From the NCBI RefSeq assembly GCF_028464145.1, contig NZ_JAQPCG010000002.1, positions 186,001-250,000 of the forward strand: DNA of 64,000 nt, read 5' to 3'. The notes beneath the pieces are model-generated. The model did not search any database and was not told the DNA's origin. It saw only the letters and a program-made list of their open reading frames with translations. Shown in pieces: positions 55,706-63,971 of this stretch. The position numbers and the translations under genes were made by a program. Numbering within the stretch: the first letter of the stretch is position 1; each line of letters starts with the position of its first letter. The stretch comes from Maribacter sp. PR1 (GTDB lineage Bacteria; Bacteroidota; Bacteroidia; Flavobacteriales; Flavobacteriaceae).

Positions 55706-57667
55706 ATGCGCATCAAATTCTCAAAACGTTTTACGTTAGTAGGGGCTTTTGCCCTTATATTTATTTTCCTTTCATTCTTTCTTAGGCTGGTATTTTTGCT
55801 ATGGAATTTCACTGAAGTCGACTTTGGATTAATTGGACTGTCTACCTTAATTTTAATTGGATTGTTTTATGATATAGGTACAGTTTCCTTTTTTGGGGCA
55901 GTTGCCGCCCTTTATTTTATGGCCATGCCCAAAAGATTTATAGGTTCCTATATTGACAAAATAATATGTTATTCCGGTTTCGCAATAGGTCTTTTGATTA
56001 TATACTTTTCCTTCTTTGCTGAATTTACATTTTGGAGTGAGTTTCATAGGCGTTTCAACTTTATAGCTGTGGATTACTTAATATACACATACGAAGTAGT
56101 TAAGAATATTAATGAATCTTATCCATTGCCATTTCTAGTTGGAGGTGTTTTATTATTGGTCATTTTAACGGTTTTTATTTTAAGCAGATATAAAATTTTC
56201 AATCAAGCTTTTAGTAGTAAGGATAACTTTAAAAAGCGTTTAATTCCAAGCTTGGCCATTTTTGGGATAATGATATATTTTACATTGTTCGTTAAGAACG
56301 AGCATGCAGAAATCTCCGAAAACAGATATAATAATGAGTTGGCCAAGGCCGGAATCTATTCATTTTTCGCTGCCTTTAGGAACAATGAACTTAGTTACAA
56401 AGAGTTCTATAAAACCATTAATAATCAGGAAGCCTTTAAAGAGGTCAACAAGAAAATTGCGACCGATAGTACTTATTCCGATTTATACAGTTTGAGAAGG
56501 TTTATAGTTAATGATGGCGAGGATAGAAAACCTAATGTAATTTTTATATGTGTTGAGAGTTTAAGCGCTAAATTTTTAGGTGTATTTGGGAATGAGGACC
56601 AACTTACACCAACTTTAGACTCACTATCTGGAAAAGGGCTGTTTTTTGACAATTTATTTGCTTCAGGCACCCGAACTGTAAGGGGTATGGAAGCGATTTC
56701 ACTTTCCATTCCACCAACACCCGGAAGAAGCATTGTTAAACGCCCTAAAAATCAAAACTTATTTACCATAGGGGAAGTGTTCAAATCAAAAGGCTATAGC
56801 CGAACTTTTTTTTATGGAGGTGATGGCTATTTTGATAATATGGATAAATATTTCAGTGGGAATGGTTTCGATATTGTTGATAGGGGAAGGGGTTTCCTTC
56901 CCTCTGGGGATATAGTTACGAACCGAAAAAATATTGATGATAATGAAGTGACTTTTGAAAATGCCTGGGGCGTATGTGACGAAGATATTTATAAGAAAGT
57001 AATTAAGGAGTCTGATATCTATGCGGCAAGTGGAAGACCATTCTTCAATTTTATAATGACTACATCCAACCACAAACCTTATACTTATCCTAAGGGCAAA
57101 ATTGATATTCCATCTGGGTCAGGTAGAAATGGCGCTGTGAAGTATACGGATTTTGCCATTCGCAAATTTTTAGAGGAGGCAAGGAAAAAACCATGGTTCA
57201 ATAATACAGTCTTTGTTATTATGGCCGATCATTGTGCAAGCAGTGCGGGGCGTTGGGAGTTAGATGTGGCCAATTACCACATACCTGCAATGATTCTAAA
57301 CCCCAATATTACCAAAAACGAACATATTGAAAAACTCTGCTCCCAAATCGATATTTTCCCAACTTTGTTCGCCCAATTAGGTTGGGACTATGAAAGTAAT
57401 CTATTTGGCAAGGATGTATTTAAAATGAATAAGCAAGATGAACGGGCATTTATTGGTAATTATAGAAAGTTAGGATTATTAAAGGGCGATGAGCTCATGG
57501 TCCTCGGAGACCAAAAAACGGCTAATTTTTATCATTGGAATAAATCGGATAATAGTTTGGAGGCGTTGCCTTCCAATTCCGAATTTTTAAAGGAATCAAT
57601 ATCCTATTTTCAGGTGGCCGATTATTTGTACAATAATGATGGGTTAACCATAAAAATGAACCCATGA
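55706..57667 (+). CDS. LtaS-like phosphoglycerol transferase / sulfatase-superfamily membrane protein
   Basis: 653 residues. Five or so membrane segments occupy residues 10-200, and then a large exported catalytic domain of the alkaline phosphatase superfamily follows. Metal-ligand Glu284 is in 'VIFICVESLSAKFLG', the nucleophile threonine in 'LFASGTRTVRGMEA' (about 318-330), and the Asp/His pair in 'FVIMADHCASSAGR'. The membrane part has 'RFNFIAVDYLIYTYEVVKNINESYP', shared with related Gram-negative enzymes. LtaS-type enzymes move phosphoglycerol from phosphatidylglycerol onto an acceptor and leave diacylglycerol. The acceptor here is unknown. Its stop overlaps the start of a diacylglycerol kinase gene by 4 bases. 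Confidence 0.88.
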   Translation: MRIKFSKRFTLVGAFALIFIFLSFFLRLVFLLWNFTEVDFGLIGLSTLILIGLFYDIGTVSFFGAVAALYFMAMPKRFIGSYIDKIICYSGFAIGLLIIYFSFFAEFTFWSEFHRRFNFIAVDYLIYTYEVVKNINESYPLPFLVGGVLLLVILTVFILSRYKIFNQAFSSKDNFKKRLIPSLAIFGIMIYFTLFVKNEHAEISENRYNNELAKAGIYSFFAAFRNNELSYKEFYKTINNQEAFKEVNKKIATDSTYSDLYSLRRFIVNDGEDRKPNVIFICVESLSAKFLGVFGNEDQLTPTLDSLSGKGLFFDNLFASGTRTVRGMEAISLSIPPTPGRSIVKRPKNQNLFTIGEVFKSKGYSRTFFYGGDGYFDNMDKYFSGNGFDIVDRGRGFLPSGDIVTNRKNIDDNEVTFENAWGVCDEDIYKKVIKESDIYAASGRPFFNFIMTTSNHKPYTYPKGKIDIPSGSGRNGAVKYTDFAIRKFLEEARKKPWFNNTVFVIMADHCASSAGRWELDVANYHIPAMILNPNITKNEHIEKLCSQIDIFPTLFAQLGWDYESNLFGKDVFKMNKQDERAFIGNYRKLGLLKGDELMVLGDQKTANFYHWNKSDNSLEALPSNSEFLKESISYFQVADYLYNNDGLTIKMNP

Positions 57668-58548
57668 AAAAGGTTCATTTTGTAGTAAACCCAAAAGCGG
57701 GCAAAGGAAAAAGTAAAATAAGCGAAGAATATTTACTAAGATTCTTTAATAAGTACAACTATAAAATTGTAGTCAAATATTCCAATTACAAGGGACACGC
57801 TAAATTTTTAGCAAAAGAATCGGTTGTTGAGAAGGCTGATATTATAGTCGCTTGCGGTGGAGACGGAACCATAAATGAAGTTGCATCAGCAATTGTAAAT
57901 TCCCATATTATCTTAGGTATTGTCCCTATAGGATCTGGTAATGGATTGGCTTCCAACCTAAACATACCCAACGATACAAATAAGGCCATTGCTCTTATCA
58001 AGAAAAATAAAACCTCACGTATAGATATCGGTAAGGTTAACGATTCTTATTTTTTCAGCAATATGGGAATTGGTTTTGATGCTGCCGTAATCAATTCTTA
58101 CCACCTAGGAAATAGACACCAACTTCTGGGTTATTTAAAGTCTACAGTAAAAACGTTTTTTAACTTTAAACCCTTGCAGGATATTACCCTGGAACTGGCC
58201 GGAAAAACTAAAAATATCAACCCGTTTTTGTTCTTTATATCCAACTCCAATATGTTGGGCTACAATGTTTCACTTACAAGAAAGGCATCTTTACAAGATG
58301 GACTTTTGGACATTGTTTTAATTGAACACGCCAACAAACTGAAAATCTTGTGGTTTGCTTTTTTACTGTTTATTGGGCAATCTCAAATAATAAAAGGGCT
58401 AACCTATAAGCAAGTCAAAACTCTAAAATTGCATTGTAAAAATGGAAGCTATAAATGGCTTATCCAACAAGATGGAGAACCATTGGTAGTGGAAAAAAAC
58501 GAGATTGATGTTGAGGTATTGCCCAATGCACTAGAGGTCTTGGTATAA
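57664..58548 (+). CDS. Diacylglycerol/lipid kinase family protein (YegS/DgkB type)
   Basis: 294 residues. The catalytic N-domain has 'KVHFVVNPKAGKGKS', the G-G-D-G-T motif in 'VACGGDGTINEVASAIVN' and 'GIVPIGSGNGLASNL'. A beta-rich C-domain follows. It phosphorylates diacylglycerol or a related lipid in the cytoplasm. Its ATG sits inside the stop of the LtaS-like gene (ATGA), so the two are translated as a unit. This agrees with recycling of diacylglycerol made by the transferase. Confidence 0.9.
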   Translation: MKKVHFVVNPKAGKGKSKISEEYLLRFFNKYNYKIVVKYSNYKGHAKFLAKESVVEKADIIVACGGDGTINEVASAIVNSHIILGIVPIGSGNGLASNLNIPNDTNKAIALIKKNKTSRIDIGKVNDSYFFSNMGIGFDAAVINSYHLGNRHQLLGYLKSTVKTFFNFKPLQDITLELAGKTKNINPFLFFISNSNMLGYNVSLTRKASLQDGLLDIVLIEHANKLKILWFAFLLFIGQSQIIKGLTYKQVKTLKLHCKNGSYKWLIQQDGEPLVVEKNEIDVEVLPNALEVLV

Positions 58549-58845: not shown

Positions 58846-59289
58846 ATGAAAAAGCGGATAATATTAATGTTCATCCTGGCAATGACTATCGGAAATAGTG
58901 TTTTTGCCCAAGATTGGCTCAAAGATTTTTCCAAAGCGAAAGAATTGGCCAAAACAGAAAACAAATCCATTGTTTTGGTATTCCAAGGTTCGGACTGGTG
59001 CGCTCCTTGTATCAAGTTGGACAGAAGTATTTGGAGTTCCGAGGAGTTTAAAACGTATTCAAAAGAGCATTTCCTTATGGTGCAGGCAGATTTCCCCAGA
59101 AAAAAACAAAATGCACTACCTAAAGAACAAGCAGATGCAAATGCCAAATTGGCCGAGGCCTATAACAAAAACGGAGTTTTTCCCTTAGTTGTCGTATTTG
59201 ATAAAAACGGTAAGTTATTGGGCGAAACTAGTTATAAGAAAATAACACCAAAGGAATATATCAGTTTGTTAGAATCTTTTACACTCTAG
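58846..59289 (+). CDS. Exported thioredoxin-fold protein
   Basis: 147 residues with a signal peptide (1-21, cleaved after FAQ). The redox pair is Cys52/Cys55 in 'GSDWCAPCIKLDR', within the fragment 'SIVLVFQGSDWCAPC'. The cis-proline region is 'NGVFPLVVVFDKNGKLL'. This is the DUF953/thioredoxin_7-like family, working in the periplasm as a disulfide reductase. It is the first gene of a compact redox operon, 3 bp before apbE, with DsbD four genes later as the probable electron donor. Confidence 0.9.
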   Translation: MKKRIILMFILAMTIGNSVFAQDWLKDFSKAKELAKTENKSIVLVFQGSDWCAPCIKLDRSIWSSEEFKTYSKEHFLMVQADFPRKKQNALPKEQADANAKLAEAYNKNGVFPLVVVFDKNGKLLGETSYKKITPKEYISLLESFTL

Positions 59290-59292
59290 ATT

Positions 59293-60285
59293 TTGAAAAA
59301 TTGGGCTTACTTTATACTATTTCACTTCATATGTATATCGGCAACATCACAACAAGTCTATCCACGCACTTTAAAGTTAATGGGGAACAGGTTCGATCTA
59401 ACCGTTGTGGCAGTCGATTCAACTTCTGGCAATAGCTTCGTTAATGAAGCCATCGCGGAAATATCAAGAATTGAACGTTTGATATCCTCGTGGGACAAAA
59501 ATTCACAGACATCGGAAATCAATAGAAATGCAGGTGTAAAACCAGTTATTGTTGATGACGAATTATTTCTACTTATTAAACGAGCTATAAAAATTTCAAA
59601 ATTAACGAACGGTGCTTTTGATATTAGTTATGCATCCATGGACAAAATCTGGAAGTTTGATGGTTCTATGACCGAAATGCCTACAAAAGAAAAAATCCAA
59701 AAATCAGTTGAAAAAGTCGGGTATGAAAATATAATCCTGAACGCGGAAAACCATTCCGTTTTTTTAAGGCTCCCGGAGATGAAAATTGGTTTTGGCGCTA
59801 TTGGCAAAGGATATGCTGCTGATAAGGCGAAAGCATTATTACAAAATAAGGGTGTAGTTGCGGGTATTATCAATGCATCTGGAGACTTAGATACTTGGGG
59901 CAAACAACCAAACGGAGAAGACTGGACGGTAGCCATAGTTAACCCTTTAAATAAAGAAAAAGTTTTTTCGTGGATGCCCATCCATAATAGTGCAGTAGTC
60001 ACATCTGGTAACTACGAAAAATATGTAAGATTCCATGATATTTTATATACTCACATTATTGACCCTAGAACTGGGTATCCTTCAACTGGAATTTTAAGTG
60101 CAACCATTTTTACAAAAACAGCAGAGTTTGCCGATGCATTGGCAACATCACTTTTTGTAATGGGTGTAGAAACTGGGTTGGATTTTATAAATCAACTAAA
60201 TGGTGTTGAATGTATTATCGTAGATAAAGACAATAAAATTATAACCTCAAAAAATATTGAATTAAAACAACTTGAAAATGATTAA
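59293..60285 (+). CDS. apbE: FAD:protein FMN transferase (ApbE), exported
   Basis: 330 residues. It transfers FMN from FAD to a Ser/Thr of a target protein in the periplasm. The first codon is TTG (59293), 3 bp after the upstream stop, and it gives a proper signal peptide (MKNWAYFILFHFIC). Signatures are 'MGNRFDLTVVAVD', 'EISRIERLISSWDKNSQTSEINRNAG', 'GFGAIGKGYAADKA', 'INASGDLDTWG' and the Mg-binding 'THIIDPRTGYPSTG' with 'ADALATSLFVMG'. The target is not obvious in the window; the DUF3570 protein two genes down is the first to test. It overlaps the DUF4266 gene by 8 bases. Confidence 0.93.
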   Translation: MKNWAYFILFHFICISATSQQVYPRTLKLMGNRFDLTVVAVDSTSGNSFVNEAIAEISRIERLISSWDKNSQTSEINRNAGVKPVIVDDELFLLIKRAIKISKLTNGAFDISYASMDKIWKFDGSMTEMPTKEKIQKSVEKVGYENIILNAENHSVFLRLPEMKIGFGAIGKGYAADKAKALLQNKGVVAGIINASGDLDTWGKQPNGEDWTVAIVNPLNKEKVFSWMPIHNSAVVTSGNYEKYVRFHDILYTHIIDPRTGYPSTGILSATIFTKTAEFADALATSLFVMGVETGLDFINQLNGVECIIVDKDNKIITSKNIELKQLEND

Positions 60286-60490
60286 AAAAGCATTGTTAAT
60301 AGTAGTTATTCTTACCTCATTTAGTTCTTGCGTGGTTGTTAAAGAATATGAAAAGGTTAACCTAAATGATCCGGATATGGCCTTGTCACAAAAGAGATTT
60401 GATCGGTTTCAAACCAATTTTCAAGTATATAGGGAAAGTGCTTCTGGAGCCAATGGTGGTAAGTCTGGTGGTGGTTGTGGCTGTAATTAA
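60278..60490 (+). CDS. DUF4266 lipoprotein with Gly/Cys-rich tail
   Basis: 70 residues from the ATG at 60278, whose codons overlap the apbE stop; a TTG two codons earlier is also in frame. The lipobox is in 'LTSFSSC'. 'VNLNDPDMALSQKRFDRFQTNF' and 'YRESASGANGGKSGGGCGCN' are the DUF4266 hallmarks. The C-terminal CGC pair could bind a metal or be the redox partner of the thioredoxin-like protein, but the function is unknown. The gene always seems to travel with apbE and DUF3570 genes, as it does here. Confidence 0.88.
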   Translation: MIKKALLIVVILTSFSSCVVVKEYEKVNLNDPDMALSQKRFDRFQTNFQVYRESASGANGGKSGGGCGCN

Positions 60491-60510
60491 TTTGTTATAA
60501 GCATAAGATT

Positions 60511-61962
60511 TTGAAAAATTTATTCATAATAGTGGCTATATTTTCCTTAGGAAAAATAATTGCCCAGAACGATTCAAGTAAAGAATATAAAAAGCGTGTT
60601 TTGGAATCTGCGGAAGTAGATTTTTTGTCTAGTTATTATGTTCAAAATGGAAAAAATGCTTCAGTAACCGGTGGTATTGGTAATGAACATCTTACAGATT
60701 TTACACCTACAATTGTAGTAAGTATCCCATTAAATGAAGATGATATACTCACTGTAGATGCAGGTATATCTACGTATACATCGGCATCTTCCAGTAATGG
60801 AAATCCTTTTGACAGAAATATACAAGTTCCAAGTGGAACTAGAATTGTCACAGGAGCTTCTTCGAGTTCCAAAGAAACTACGTATACGAATGTATTTTCA
60901 CCTACACCATGGGCAGCTTCAACGGGGGCTTCCCGTCAAGATACTTGGGCCAGTTTTAGTTTGGATTATTCACATAGTTCAGATAACAGAAACACTATTT
61001 GGAATGCAGATGCATCCGTTGCAACAGAATATGACTATTTTTCCATAGGTTTTGGAGGAGGATTGTTAAAGCAATTCAATGAAAAAAATACCACATTAGG
61101 GCTGAGTGCAAAGGTGTATTTAGATATATGGAAGCCCGTTTACCCCACTGAATTAAAAGCTTATGAGGCTGTAAATGGAAATTTGAATTTAGGATTTTTT
61201 AGTGGAATAACCATATACGATCAAAACGGTAACGAAAGTACAAATTGGAGTCCTATAAGCGGATTTAGTCTGATTCAAGATAAATCTCGTAATTCCTATT
61301 CAGCATCAATTAGATTTTCACAAATATTAAGCAAGAATGCTCAGATATCTTTCTTTTTAGATGTAGTAAAACAACAAGGTTGGTTATCAAATCCTCTGCA
61401 AAGGGTATATTTTGGTGATATCCCAAATTACTATATTGGTAATCCTTCGAGTATACCCAATTACACTTCCTTTACTAATAAGGATGTTTTTCAGTTGGCC
61501 GATGATATAGAAAGAATGCCCAATAGCAGATTTAAAATTCCAATAGGTATGCGTTTTAATTATTACATAAACGAATACCTTGCCCTAAGAACTTATTACA
61601 GGTATTATTTTGATGATTGGGGAGTAAATTCGAATACGGCAAATTTAGAAGTTCCAATTAAAGTTTCTGAAAAATTTACGTTCTACCCTGCATTTAGGTA
61701 TTACAATCAGACCCATGCGGATTATTTTGCACCATACGAACAAAATTTATCTACGGGAACTTACTATACCTCAGATTATGATTTGTCAAAATTTAGTGCC
61801 CAGCAATACGGTTTAGGTGTGGGGTATACGGATATTTTTACAAAATACCATCTTTTAAAATTTGGGTTAAAAAGCATCAATTTAAGATATAGTGCATACC
61901 GTCGTAATTCTGGTTTTAAAGCAAATATTATTACCGGGGGTTTCACATTCGTATTGGATTGA
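60511..61962 (+). CDS. DUF3570 outer-membrane beta-barrel protein
   Basis: 483 residues, starting at TTG (60511) in the same sequence setting as apbE. The signal peptide is about residues 1-19 (FSLGKIIAQ). The rest is rich in alternating aromatic strands ('LALRTYYRYYFDDWG', 'FTFYPAFRYYNQTHADYFAPY', 'YGLGVGYTDIF') and ends in an aromatic/charged final strand ('ANIITGGFTFVLD'), as outer-membrane barrels do. The exported N-terminal part has two TGAS tetrads (114-117 and 138-141), which resemble the [S/T]-G-A-[S/T] core used by ApbE. The function is unknown. It lies 20 bp after the DUF4266 gene. Confidence 0.85.
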   Translation: MKNLFIIVAIFSLGKIIAQNDSSKEYKKRVLESAEVDFLSSYYVQNGKNASVTGGIGNEHLTDFTPTIVVSIPLNEDDILTVDAGISTYTSASSSNGNPFDRNIQVPSGTRIVTGASSSSKETTYTNVFSPTPWAASTGASRQDTWASFSLDYSHSSDNRNTIWNADASVATEYDYFSIGFGGGLLKQFNEKNTTLGLSAKVYLDIWKPVYPTELKAYEAVNGNLNLGFFSGITIYDQNGNESTNWSPISGFSLIQDKSRNSYSASIRFSQILSKNAQISFFLDVVKQQGWLSNPLQRVYFGDIPNYYIGNPSSIPNYTSFTNKDVFQLADDIERMPNSRFKIPIGMRFNYYINEYLALRTYYRYYFDDWGVNSNTANLEVPIKVSEKFTFYPAFRYYNQTHADYFAPYEQNLSTGTYYTSDYDLSKFSAQQYGLGVGYTDIFTKYHLLKFGLKSINLRYSAYRRNSGFKANIITGGFTFVLD

Positions 61963-61995
61963 AACGGTATTTAATTTATAAACAAACGGTTTCAA
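61959..61995 (+). terminator. Possible hairpin between the DUF3570 gene and dsbD
   Basis: TTGAAACGGT (61959-61968) can pair with ACGGTTTCAA (61986-61995) with one internal G-G mismatch, followed by AATTTT. The stem overlaps the stop codon of the DUF3570 gene. It is weak and may only attenuate transcription into dsbD. Confidence 0.35.
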
Positions 61996-62015
61996 AATTT
62001 TAATCCCATTCTATT

Positions 62016-63971
62016 ATGAAGAACCTTATACTAGCAGTCTTTTTGATAATTTCCAGCGTTACTGTAATGGAATCTCAAGATGTAGAACCAGTAACATGGG
62101 AAGTTTCTGTTTCAGAAATATCCAAAAATGAATTTAATATAATTATCCAGGGTAATTTACTAGATGATTGGCATTTATTTTCACAATTTACAGACGAGGG
62201 GGGCTCGTTACCTGCCAAATTAAATTTTATTAATTCCGGGGAGAACTATCAGTTAATCGGCCCTACTACGGAAGGTGACACTTTTAAAGCTTACAATGAC
62301 ATTTTTAATGTAGAAGAAACCTATTTTATCAATGAGGCCAGGTTTACTCAAAGGGTTAAATTATTAAATACCGATGTACGCCAGATTAGTGTAATTCTTA
62401 GTTATCAAGTCTGTAATGAAGTTTGTTTAAATAAGGAGAAGCAATTTAATATAGGACTTGATGGTGGAAACGCGACTATGGATACTGTTGTCCTGGACGA
62501 GAAGAGTGAGGTTTTTTCAAAGGCATTGCGCCTTGATCTAAAGAACAAGCAGTTGCTCCAATCTTCTGCTACTCCTTTAAGTAATGATAGTAGCCTGTGG
62601 AAAATATTTGTTCTAGGTTTCCTTGGGGGGTTGGTAGCATTGTTGACGCCTTGTGTGTTTCCTATGATTCCGCTTACGGTTTCGTATTTTACCAAGCAAT
62701 CCGGTTCAAAGGTAAAAAGCACTATGAACGCTATGACCTATGGTCTTTTTATCTTTTTAATTTACCTCGCATTGAGTATTCCATTTCATTTCTTGGATTC
62801 GGTGAATCCAGAAATTCTTAATACCATATCTACCAATGTGTGGTTGAACATTGCATTCTTTTTGATTTTCGTGGTGTTTGCATTTTCCTTTTTTGGGTAT
62901 TTTGAGTTAACCCTTCCACATAGTTGGTCCAATAAAATGGATTCATCTTCTAACATTGGTGGTATTTTGGGCATATTTTTTATGGCATTGACCTTGGCCT
63001 TGGTTTCCTTTTCATGTACAGGGCCAATTTTGGGATCACTTTTAGCAGGTTCACTTTCTGCAGATGGGGGAGCCATGGAACTAACGGCAGGTATGGGAGG
63101 ATTTGGTATTGCCTTGGCCATGCCATTTGCCTTATTCGCACTCTTCCCAAAGTTATTGGTTTCCCTTCCAAAATCAGGAAGTTGGTTAAATACGGTAAAA
63201 GTTGTGTTAGGTTTTATAGAGCTTGGAATGGCCTTTAAATTCTTGTCTAATGCCGATTTAGTGAGCCATTGGGGATTGTTGAAAAGAGAAGTGTTTATTG
63301 GAATTTGGATAATTTTATTTGTGTTATCGGCCCTATACTTCCTTGGTATAGTTCGCTTTCCTCATAAAAAGAGAAAGAAACTTAGTTTTGGCAACATAGC
63401 AACGGGAATTATTATAGGGGGCATTATTATTTACCTTAGTTCCGGGCTTCAGAAAAACGCTCCATTAACACTGCTCAGCGGTTTTCCGCCACCATCTTTC
63501 TATAGTCTTTACGACCAGGAATACGACTGCCCTCTAGGACTTGATTGTTTTAAGGACTTCGACGAAGGTTACGCCTATGCCAAAGCAAAGGATAAACCAA
63601 TCTTGTTGGATTTTACCGGATGGGCATGCGTTAACTGTAGAAAAATGGAAGAAAATGTTTGGAGTATTCCCAAGATTCATCAAATTTTAAAAAATGATTT
63701 TGTATTGATTTCATTGTATGTTGACGACAGAAAACCATTGGGCAAACTTTCAGAATTTAATTATAAAGTTAGCGATACGCACTTAAAACTAATCAACACT
63801 GTCGGTGACAAATGGGCAACTTTTCAGTCTATAAACTTTAAAACTTCCTCCCAACCTTATTATGTCACATTAAATCCAAATCTTGAGTTGTTGAACCAGC
63901 CAATTCAATATTCCGGAATAGAAGAATATTATTTGTGGCTAAAGAGAAGTCTAGACAAAACGAATTATTGA
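62016..63971 (+). CDS. dsbD: Thiol:disulfide interchange protein DsbD
   Basis: 651 residues in three parts. The exported alpha domain has Cys133/Cys137 ('YQVCNEVC', CxxxC). The eight-segment membrane domain has Cys213 in 'LTPCVFPMIPL' and Cys334 in 'SFSCTGPILG'. The C-terminal thioredoxin domain has Cys538/Cys541 in 'GWACVNCRKMEEN'. All six redox cysteines are present. The protein carries electrons from cytoplasmic thioredoxin to periplasmic partners. It is downstream of thioredoxin-like, apbE, DUF4266 and DUF3570 genes on the same strand, which makes it the likely electron source for the group. Confidence 0.95.
   Translation: MKNLILAVFLIISSVTVMESQDVEPVTWEVSVSEISKNEFNIIIQGNLLDDWHLFSQFTDEGGSLPAKLNFINSGENYQLIGPTTEGDTFKAYNDIFNVEETYFINEARFTQRVKLLNTDVRQISVILSYQVCNEVCLNKEKQFNIGLDGGNATMDTVVLDEKSEVFSKALRLDLKNKQLLQSSATPLSNDSSLWKIFVLGFLGGLVALLTPCVFPMIPLTVSYFTKQSGSKVKSTMNAMTYGLFIFLIYLALSIPFHFLDSVNPEILNTISTNVWLNIAFFLIFVVFAFSFFGYFELTLPHSWSNKMDSSSNIGGILGIFFMALTLALVSFSCTGPILGSLLAGSLSADGGAMELTAGMGGFGIALAMPFALFALFPKLLVSLPKSGSWLNTVKVVLGFIELGMAFKFLSNADLVSHWGLLKREVFIGIWIILFVLSALYFLGIVRFPHKKRKKLSFGNIATGIIIGGIIIYLSSGLQKNAPLTLLSGFPPPSFYSLYDQEYDCPLGLDCFKDFDEGYAYAKAKDKPILLDFTGWACVNCRKMEENVWSIPKIHQILKNDFVLISLYVDDRKPLGKLSEFNYKVSDTHLKLINTVGDKWATFQSINFKTSSQPYYVTLNPNLELLNQPIQYSGIEEYYLWLKRSLDKTNY

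Follow-up and report, generated by a model that had tools for sequence, protein, structure and literature searches.

We describe a five-gene cluster in Maribacter sp. PR1 that belongs to an already named kind, the DsbD-type flavinylation clusters. We propose that it forms a haem-free relay from thiols to flavins at the outer membrane, most likely to handle the redox state of a transition metal such as iron, a reading we hold tentatively and with somewhat less than even confidence. The cluster lies in a 64,000-nucleotide stretch (contig NZ_JAQPCG010000002.1, positions 186,001 to 250,000; hereafter the window) and encodes a thioredoxin-like (Trx) protein, ApbE, a DUF4266 protein, a DUF3570 protein and DsbD. 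All five named families scored over their own Pfam cut-offs, and the genes lie on the same strand within 5.1 kb. A first-pass annotation, made from the letters of the window alone, had interpreted these genes as a redox relay across the periplasm. The relay towards the outer membrane is supported; the fixed place it gave to DsbD is not, and the part it gave to Trx, protecting or assembling the CGC lipoprotein, is a hypothesis.

Clusters with these five families were described as "DsbD systems" by Meheust et al. in eLife in 2021 (PMC8238504), and we therefore rejected the idea that the cluster was undescribed. That paper reports 285 DsbD flavinylation clusters, with ApbE, DUF3570 (227), Thioredoxin_7 (183) and DUF4266 (221) as typical partners, and a further 316 clusters in which the other four families occur with no DsbD nearby. 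It also reports that the DUF3570 protein of Chlorobium (C. luteolum) is flavinylated by its ApbE at two [S/T]GA[S/T] sites; the tested protein was flavinylated in E. coli, mostly pelleted and was purified under denaturing conditions (PMC8238504). The first-pass statement that no experimentally defined role was known for DUF4266 or DUF3570 is not supported, since DUF3570 flavinylation was tested, and the cluster named, in that paper. Cluster function was called uncertain there, with iron assimilation proposed because 25 clusters contain VIT1, and the C-terminal CXC pair of DUF4266 was read as possible redox cycling (PMC8238504). The window shares with the published clusters the five families, two [S/T]GA[S/T] motifs in DUF3570 and the C-terminal CXC of DUF4266. 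Relative to the main text of that paper, which does not contain the words barrel, porin, copper, ferritin or heavy metal, we add a barrel model, the placement of the sites in an outward loop, an extra YTSAS site, a motif variant with serine in other DUF3570 proteins and a CusA/CzcA-family pump in gene runs. These additions, including the runs with metal genes, are computational, and they open the function to testing. A search of the open-licence full-text literature for DUF4266 or DUF3570 found nothing beyond this paper.

To count co-occurrence, as the first-pass annotation had proposed, we examined 395 genomes drawn from the window's phylum. DUF4266 was present in 113 and DUF3570 in 118, and all 113 genomes with DUF4266 also had DUF3570, so that for these two families the proposed test is passed in this phylum. 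The five genomes with DUF3570 but no DUF4266 all belong to one family (f18, which includes loci L099 to L102 and may be green sulfur bacteria), and with this family excluded the counts are 51 for DUF4266, 51 for DUF3570 and 51 for both. In one genome (G304), the two genes are ~41 kb apart. Gene neighbourhoods were compared in the best 80 of 543 DUF4266 matches, which are near kin, mostly Flavobacteriaceae, and no random sample, and in a set of 122 loci made up of those 80, two stretches of the window genome and 40 more chosen so that most of the genera with matches were represented. The window locus is L033. In the window genome (4.73 Mb), the first four genes occur again on a different contig, with no adjoining DsbD, and this second copy is L034. 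Of the best 80 loci, which were fetched by their DUF4266 match, all 80 have DUF3570 and Trx genes and 76 have ApbE, a grouping far beyond chance. In one locus, a single 476-aa frame (L083:8403-9833) matches both Trx-like and ApbE profiles, a natural fusion of two core genes. We set aside plasmid spread of the cluster: of 72,556 plasmid records searched by tblastn with DUF3570, 5 matched, two from Hymenobacter (84% and 93% query coverage, ~30% identity) and three, partially, from Vibrio.

The outer-membrane end of the relay was addressed with two AlphaFold models, for which the DUF3570 proteins of the 80 best loci supplied 71 sequences in the first case and 54 in the second, each with the window protein added. 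The window DUF3570 model had a mean predicted local distance difference test score (pLDDT) of 86.5 and a predicted template modelling score (pTM) of 0.81. This model and that of the L120 protein both show a barrel of the outer-membrane type, in which we counted 16 strands. The structural matches were outer-membrane barrels. From the models and fold matches we thus predict an even-stranded barrel behind a signal peptide, as in known outer-membrane proteins, which supports the barrel that the first-pass annotation had guessed from sequence. The candidate flavin sites, Ser93 (YTSAS), Ser117 (VTGAS) and Ser141 (STGAS), all fall in a single loop, which connects strands 3 and 4; the two TGAS motifs span residues 114-117 and 138-141. 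By ordinary barrel topology, this loop would point outward in the model.

The ApbE motif tested in earlier work is D-x-x-[S/T]-G-A-[S/T], in which a D to A change had minor effects and a G to A change reduced flavinylation to about half (PMC12052999). All 80 close DUF3570 homologues carry Y[T/S]SAS[S/T], and all 80 have at least one [S/T]G[A/P][S/T] within the first 260 residues. Among 45 more distant DUF3570 proteins, [S/T]GA[S/T] was found in 20 and only [S/T]S[A/P]S in 23; when these sequences were shuffled, a mean of 2.4 and 3.5 sequences, respectively, contained the motif. Judged by eye in the aligned stretches, the f18 sequence DSVSGAS lines up with DHYTSAS in other Bacteroidota. These comparisons suggest that the serine variant may also be a flavin site. 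A frame between two DUF3570 genes (L101:8417-9730) begins MAAIDFISGAS, which contains the canonical ApbE motif, and continues with three Big_5 immunoglobulin-like repeats; judging from this motif, its product is possibly a further flavinylated protein.

The DUF4266 protein of the window has the C-terminus GGGCGCN. Across 15 diverse members, the lipobox Cys20 (the lipobox being judged by eye), Met36, Glu55 and GGCGC are invariant, and the CGC tail terminates 43/43 and 79/79 profile-found open reading frames (ORFs), counts that are partly circular because the profile was made from C-terminal parts. The family is under-counted in the gene maps (64/80 and 99/122 loci), where it is displaced by long overlapping reading frames; 79 DUF4266 ORFs were recognised in the 80 loci prior to the overlap filter. 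The invariant CGC tail, Met36 and Glu55 would also suit metal sequestration, in which Trx would keep the cysteine pair reduced for metal binding and the flavins would either act in a different step or sense redox state. The heavy-metal pump and VIT1 found in the runs described below are consistent with this explanation, but the pair has been read as possible redox cycling (PMC8238504) and most loci are without metal genes. We consider sequestration very improbable.

In the thiol-to-flavin relay that we favour, electrons from thiols in the cytoplasm would travel through DsbD to the Trx-like protein in the periplasm, next to the Cys-Gly-Cys end of the lipoprotein DUF4266, and from there to flavin mononucleotide (FMN) groups on serine residues of one long DUF3570 barrel loop. 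ApbE would attach FMN to the unfolded DUF3570 chain in the periplasm and, once the barrel is inserted, the flavin loop would lie on the outer side or be folded into the pore mouth. Loading before insertion fits the published DUF3570 protein, which mostly pelleted and was purified denatured (PMC8238504), and it helps to reconcile an ApbE that works in the periplasm with a loop that faces outward. A relay ending in flavin on the barrel, as the first-pass annotation had it, is supported by the flavinylation of the Chlorobium protein (PMC8238504), the motifs in the window and the barrel model. In the cell envelope, the job of the relay would most likely be metal redox handling, which many relatives link to export or storage genes (CusA/CzcA-family pump, VIT1, ferritin). 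We infer the path and direction of the electrons, the surface exposure of the loop, the flavin at YTSAS and the metal substrate.

Multihaem cytochromes are what mostly comes to mind for electron transfer across the outer membrane, and in porin-cytochrome conduits of the MtrCAB kind electrons cross the membrane through a barrel. The proposed relay would be alike in outline, with electrons crossing the outer membrane via a barrel. However, the conduits have a multihaem CxxCH cytochrome and the window cluster has none: CxxCH is absent from the listed cysteine contexts of Trx, ApbE and DsbD, the DUF4266 pair is CGC and the window DUF3570 has no cysteine. If the proposal is correct, a thiol-fed flavin barrel would be a second solution to outer-membrane electron transfer, in a family found in 118 of the 395 genomes. 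The same parts might instead serve respiration, or general extracellular electron transfer to minerals or humics, with the metal genes incidental. We keep this explanation as a rival because cytochrome b and multihaem cytochrome genes adjoin the cluster in L098, L099 and L101, and a Rieske protein is encoded near the core (within three genes, as throughout) in 10 of the 122 loci. Such cytochrome neighbours are, however, absent from the gene maps of the window and its close relatives, and thiol electrons would be an expensive source; we regard respiration as unlikely.

The metal link comes from neighbouring genes. We defined a run as genes on the same strand with gaps of up to 150 bases, which is no proof of co-transcription. 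In runs of the 122 loci, the CusA/CzcA-family pump, the pump's adaptor and VIT1 were each found 11 times, and pump and VIT1 occurred together in six loci (L065, L066, L069, L074, L082 and L170). One of these, L170 from a Winogradskyella metagenome-assembled genome, has a single 11-gene run comprising the pump, the adaptor, VIT1, two others, Crp, the four core genes and DsbD. The likeness to CusA/CzcA-family resistance-nodulation-division (RND) efflux extends to the second copy in the window genome, which has a pump in its run, and not to the window copy. In that second copy (L034:2158-11163, contig C20), the four-gene core lies 85 bases after a pump-plus-adaptor pair in a same-strand run. The 1444-aa pump, which carries a fused outer-membrane efflux domain, scored 1172.6 bits against TIGR00914 (cut-off 701.45). 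For the adaptor, a general RND adaptor model passed its cut-off, with the CzcB and CusB models below theirs, a result that does not single out a metal. All 11 pumps of core runs carry DFGxxxDGAxxxVE, which we take to be a mark of divalent-metal pumps, and for this reason we set aside a Cu(I)-specific reading.

Of 60 family genomes, 12 had a VIT1 match that passed the cut-off, so that in 122 ten-gene runs ~0.1 chance neighbours would be expected versus the 11 observed, an estimate that assumes ~3,000 genes per genome and, because the loci are related, is no formal test. Ferritin-like genes occur in 52 of the 60 genomes; the ferritin linkage (nine loci with the gene near the core) comes mostly from one Aquimarina clade, which accounts for seven of the nine. 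On a DUF3570 tree of 121 rows, from which extra L099/L100/L101 paralogues were dropped and in which long branches were flagged, the minimum numbers of label changes (gains plus losses) were 8 for the pump, 5 for VIT1 and 4 each for DsbD, ferritin and Rieske. Because the labels need multiple changes, the linkages were gained or lost repeatedly. A paired comparison of pump and VIT1 linkage on this tree yielded too few informative pairs. Regulatory genes also recur near the core, namely two-component genes (15 loci), extracytoplasmic function (ECF) sigma factors (15) and FecR (13).

The same neighbours bear on ferric-iron assimilation, in which barrel flavins would reduce Fe(III) at the outer membrane and Fe(II) would then be taken up. 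The VIT1 link, both in the published clusters (PMC8238504) and in our 11 runs, agrees with this explanation, as do the ECF sigma and FecR genes, which stand beside TonB-plug proteins. On the other hand, no ferrous importer such as FeoB is among the recurrent neighbours, although no profile search was aimed at one, in bacterial MbfA proteins that have been characterised the VIT1-type domain serves to export iron (PMC7762939), and the run-linked RND pumps belong to an efflux family. We consider assimilation improbable. With modest confidence, we prefer metal redox handling tied to efflux rather than uptake, because the recurrent metal-related neighbours are efflux, VIT1 and storage genes and the characterised bacterial proteins with VIT1-type domains export iron (PMC7762939). 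The metal-gene runs therefore shift the emphasis from the printed suggestion of iron assimilation (PMC8238504) towards export, and give a redox cluster of uncertain function a testable idea of metal handling. In a more specific form, which is possible but doubtful, a haem-free, thiol-fed barrel conduit with covalent flavins in an outward loop would work with CzcA-type pumps and VIT1 and set the redox state of the expelled metal, with ApbE loading the barrel before insertion and, across much of this phylum, accepting a looser motif, [S/T]S[A/P]S.

Several observations weigh against metal redox handling by such a relay. The direction of electron flow is assumed. The flavin loop is modelled with low confidence (pLDDT < 50 in parts), three of the eight outward loops in the L120 model are no longer than the inward turns, and two of the 45 more distant DUF3570 proteins have neither motif. 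ApbE is missing from the run in four Aquimarina loci (L123, L131, L144 and L150), where DUF4266 directly follows Trx and both DUF3570 flavin motifs are retained. DsbD is usually not adjacent: it occurs anywhere in the locus in 3 of the best 80 and within three genes in 7 of the 122 (an alternative count of 6 covers only the first core copy of each locus and so misses L101), and we rejected it as a constant member of the set that the first-pass annotation had drawn. Within three genes of the window copy there is neither a pump nor VIT1 nor ferritin, and the VIT1 and ferritin-like genes of this genome are on other contigs. Across the 122 loci, 111 have no pump in the run and 111 no VIT1. RND genes are also common, with 32 match pieces in the window genome, so that a handful of chance neighbours is expected and the link to the pump, taken by itself, carries less weight than that to VIT1.

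Coordinates of the core genes in the window are given in Table 1.

Table 1. Genes and sites of the flavinylation cluster, in window positions
Feature	Position	Strand	Basis
Trx-like gene	58846-59289	+	ORF, 147 aa; Thioredoxin_7 (PF13899) 6.3e-15
Trx-like protein, predicted periplasmic	CAPC active site, Cys52 and Cys55		Cys listing
ApbE, FAD:protein FMN transferase	59293-60285	+	330 aa, TTG start; PF02424 3.6e-82
DUF4266 small lipoprotein-like protein	60272-60490 (72 aa from TTG) or from 60278	+	PF14086 2.5e-20
DUF3570, predicted 16-strand outer-membrane barrel	60511-61962	+	483 aa, TTG start; PF12094 4.6e-44
DUF3570 strand 3-4 loop, residues 92-143	60784-60939	+	Motif positions, modelled strand limits
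DsbD, membrane thiol:disulfide electron carrier	62016-63971	+	651 aa; DsbD_TM PF02683 1.1e-23

The five same-strand genes and their gaps of 3, -8, 20 and 53 bases were confirmed from the forward-strand ORFs, the 8-base overlap of ApbE and DUF4266 being counted from an in-frame ATG at 60278. The C-terminal part of DsbD matches PF13899 (4.4e-11), and its DsbD_N match is sub-threshold (20.9 bits against a cut-off of 25). The description of DsbD as a six-cysteine protein is right for the canonical pairs only, as the total is eight (positions 133, 137, 213, 334, 505, 511, 538 and 541).

Directly upstream of the operon (window 55706-58548) are genes for a sulfatase-family membrane protein (PF00884) and a diacylglycerol kinase-like protein (PF00781). 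Sulfatase-family genes were found near the core in 11 and diacylglycerol kinase genes in nine of the 122 loci; in six of these loci they follow the core within its run. Just past the window end, L033:11994-15968 encodes an ECF sigma factor, FecR and a TonB-plug protein, and many relatives carry a similar trio that lies divergent from their Trx gene. A protein with many CxxCH motifs (Cytochrome_C7 match) is encoded at L098:8155-9333, just upstream of Trx and DUF4266 genes. A gene fusing AraC and O6-methylguanine-DNA-methyltransferase lies in the core run of nine loci, eight of them from Aquimarina (L079, L120, L123, L131, L144, L145, L150, L161 and L176 in all).

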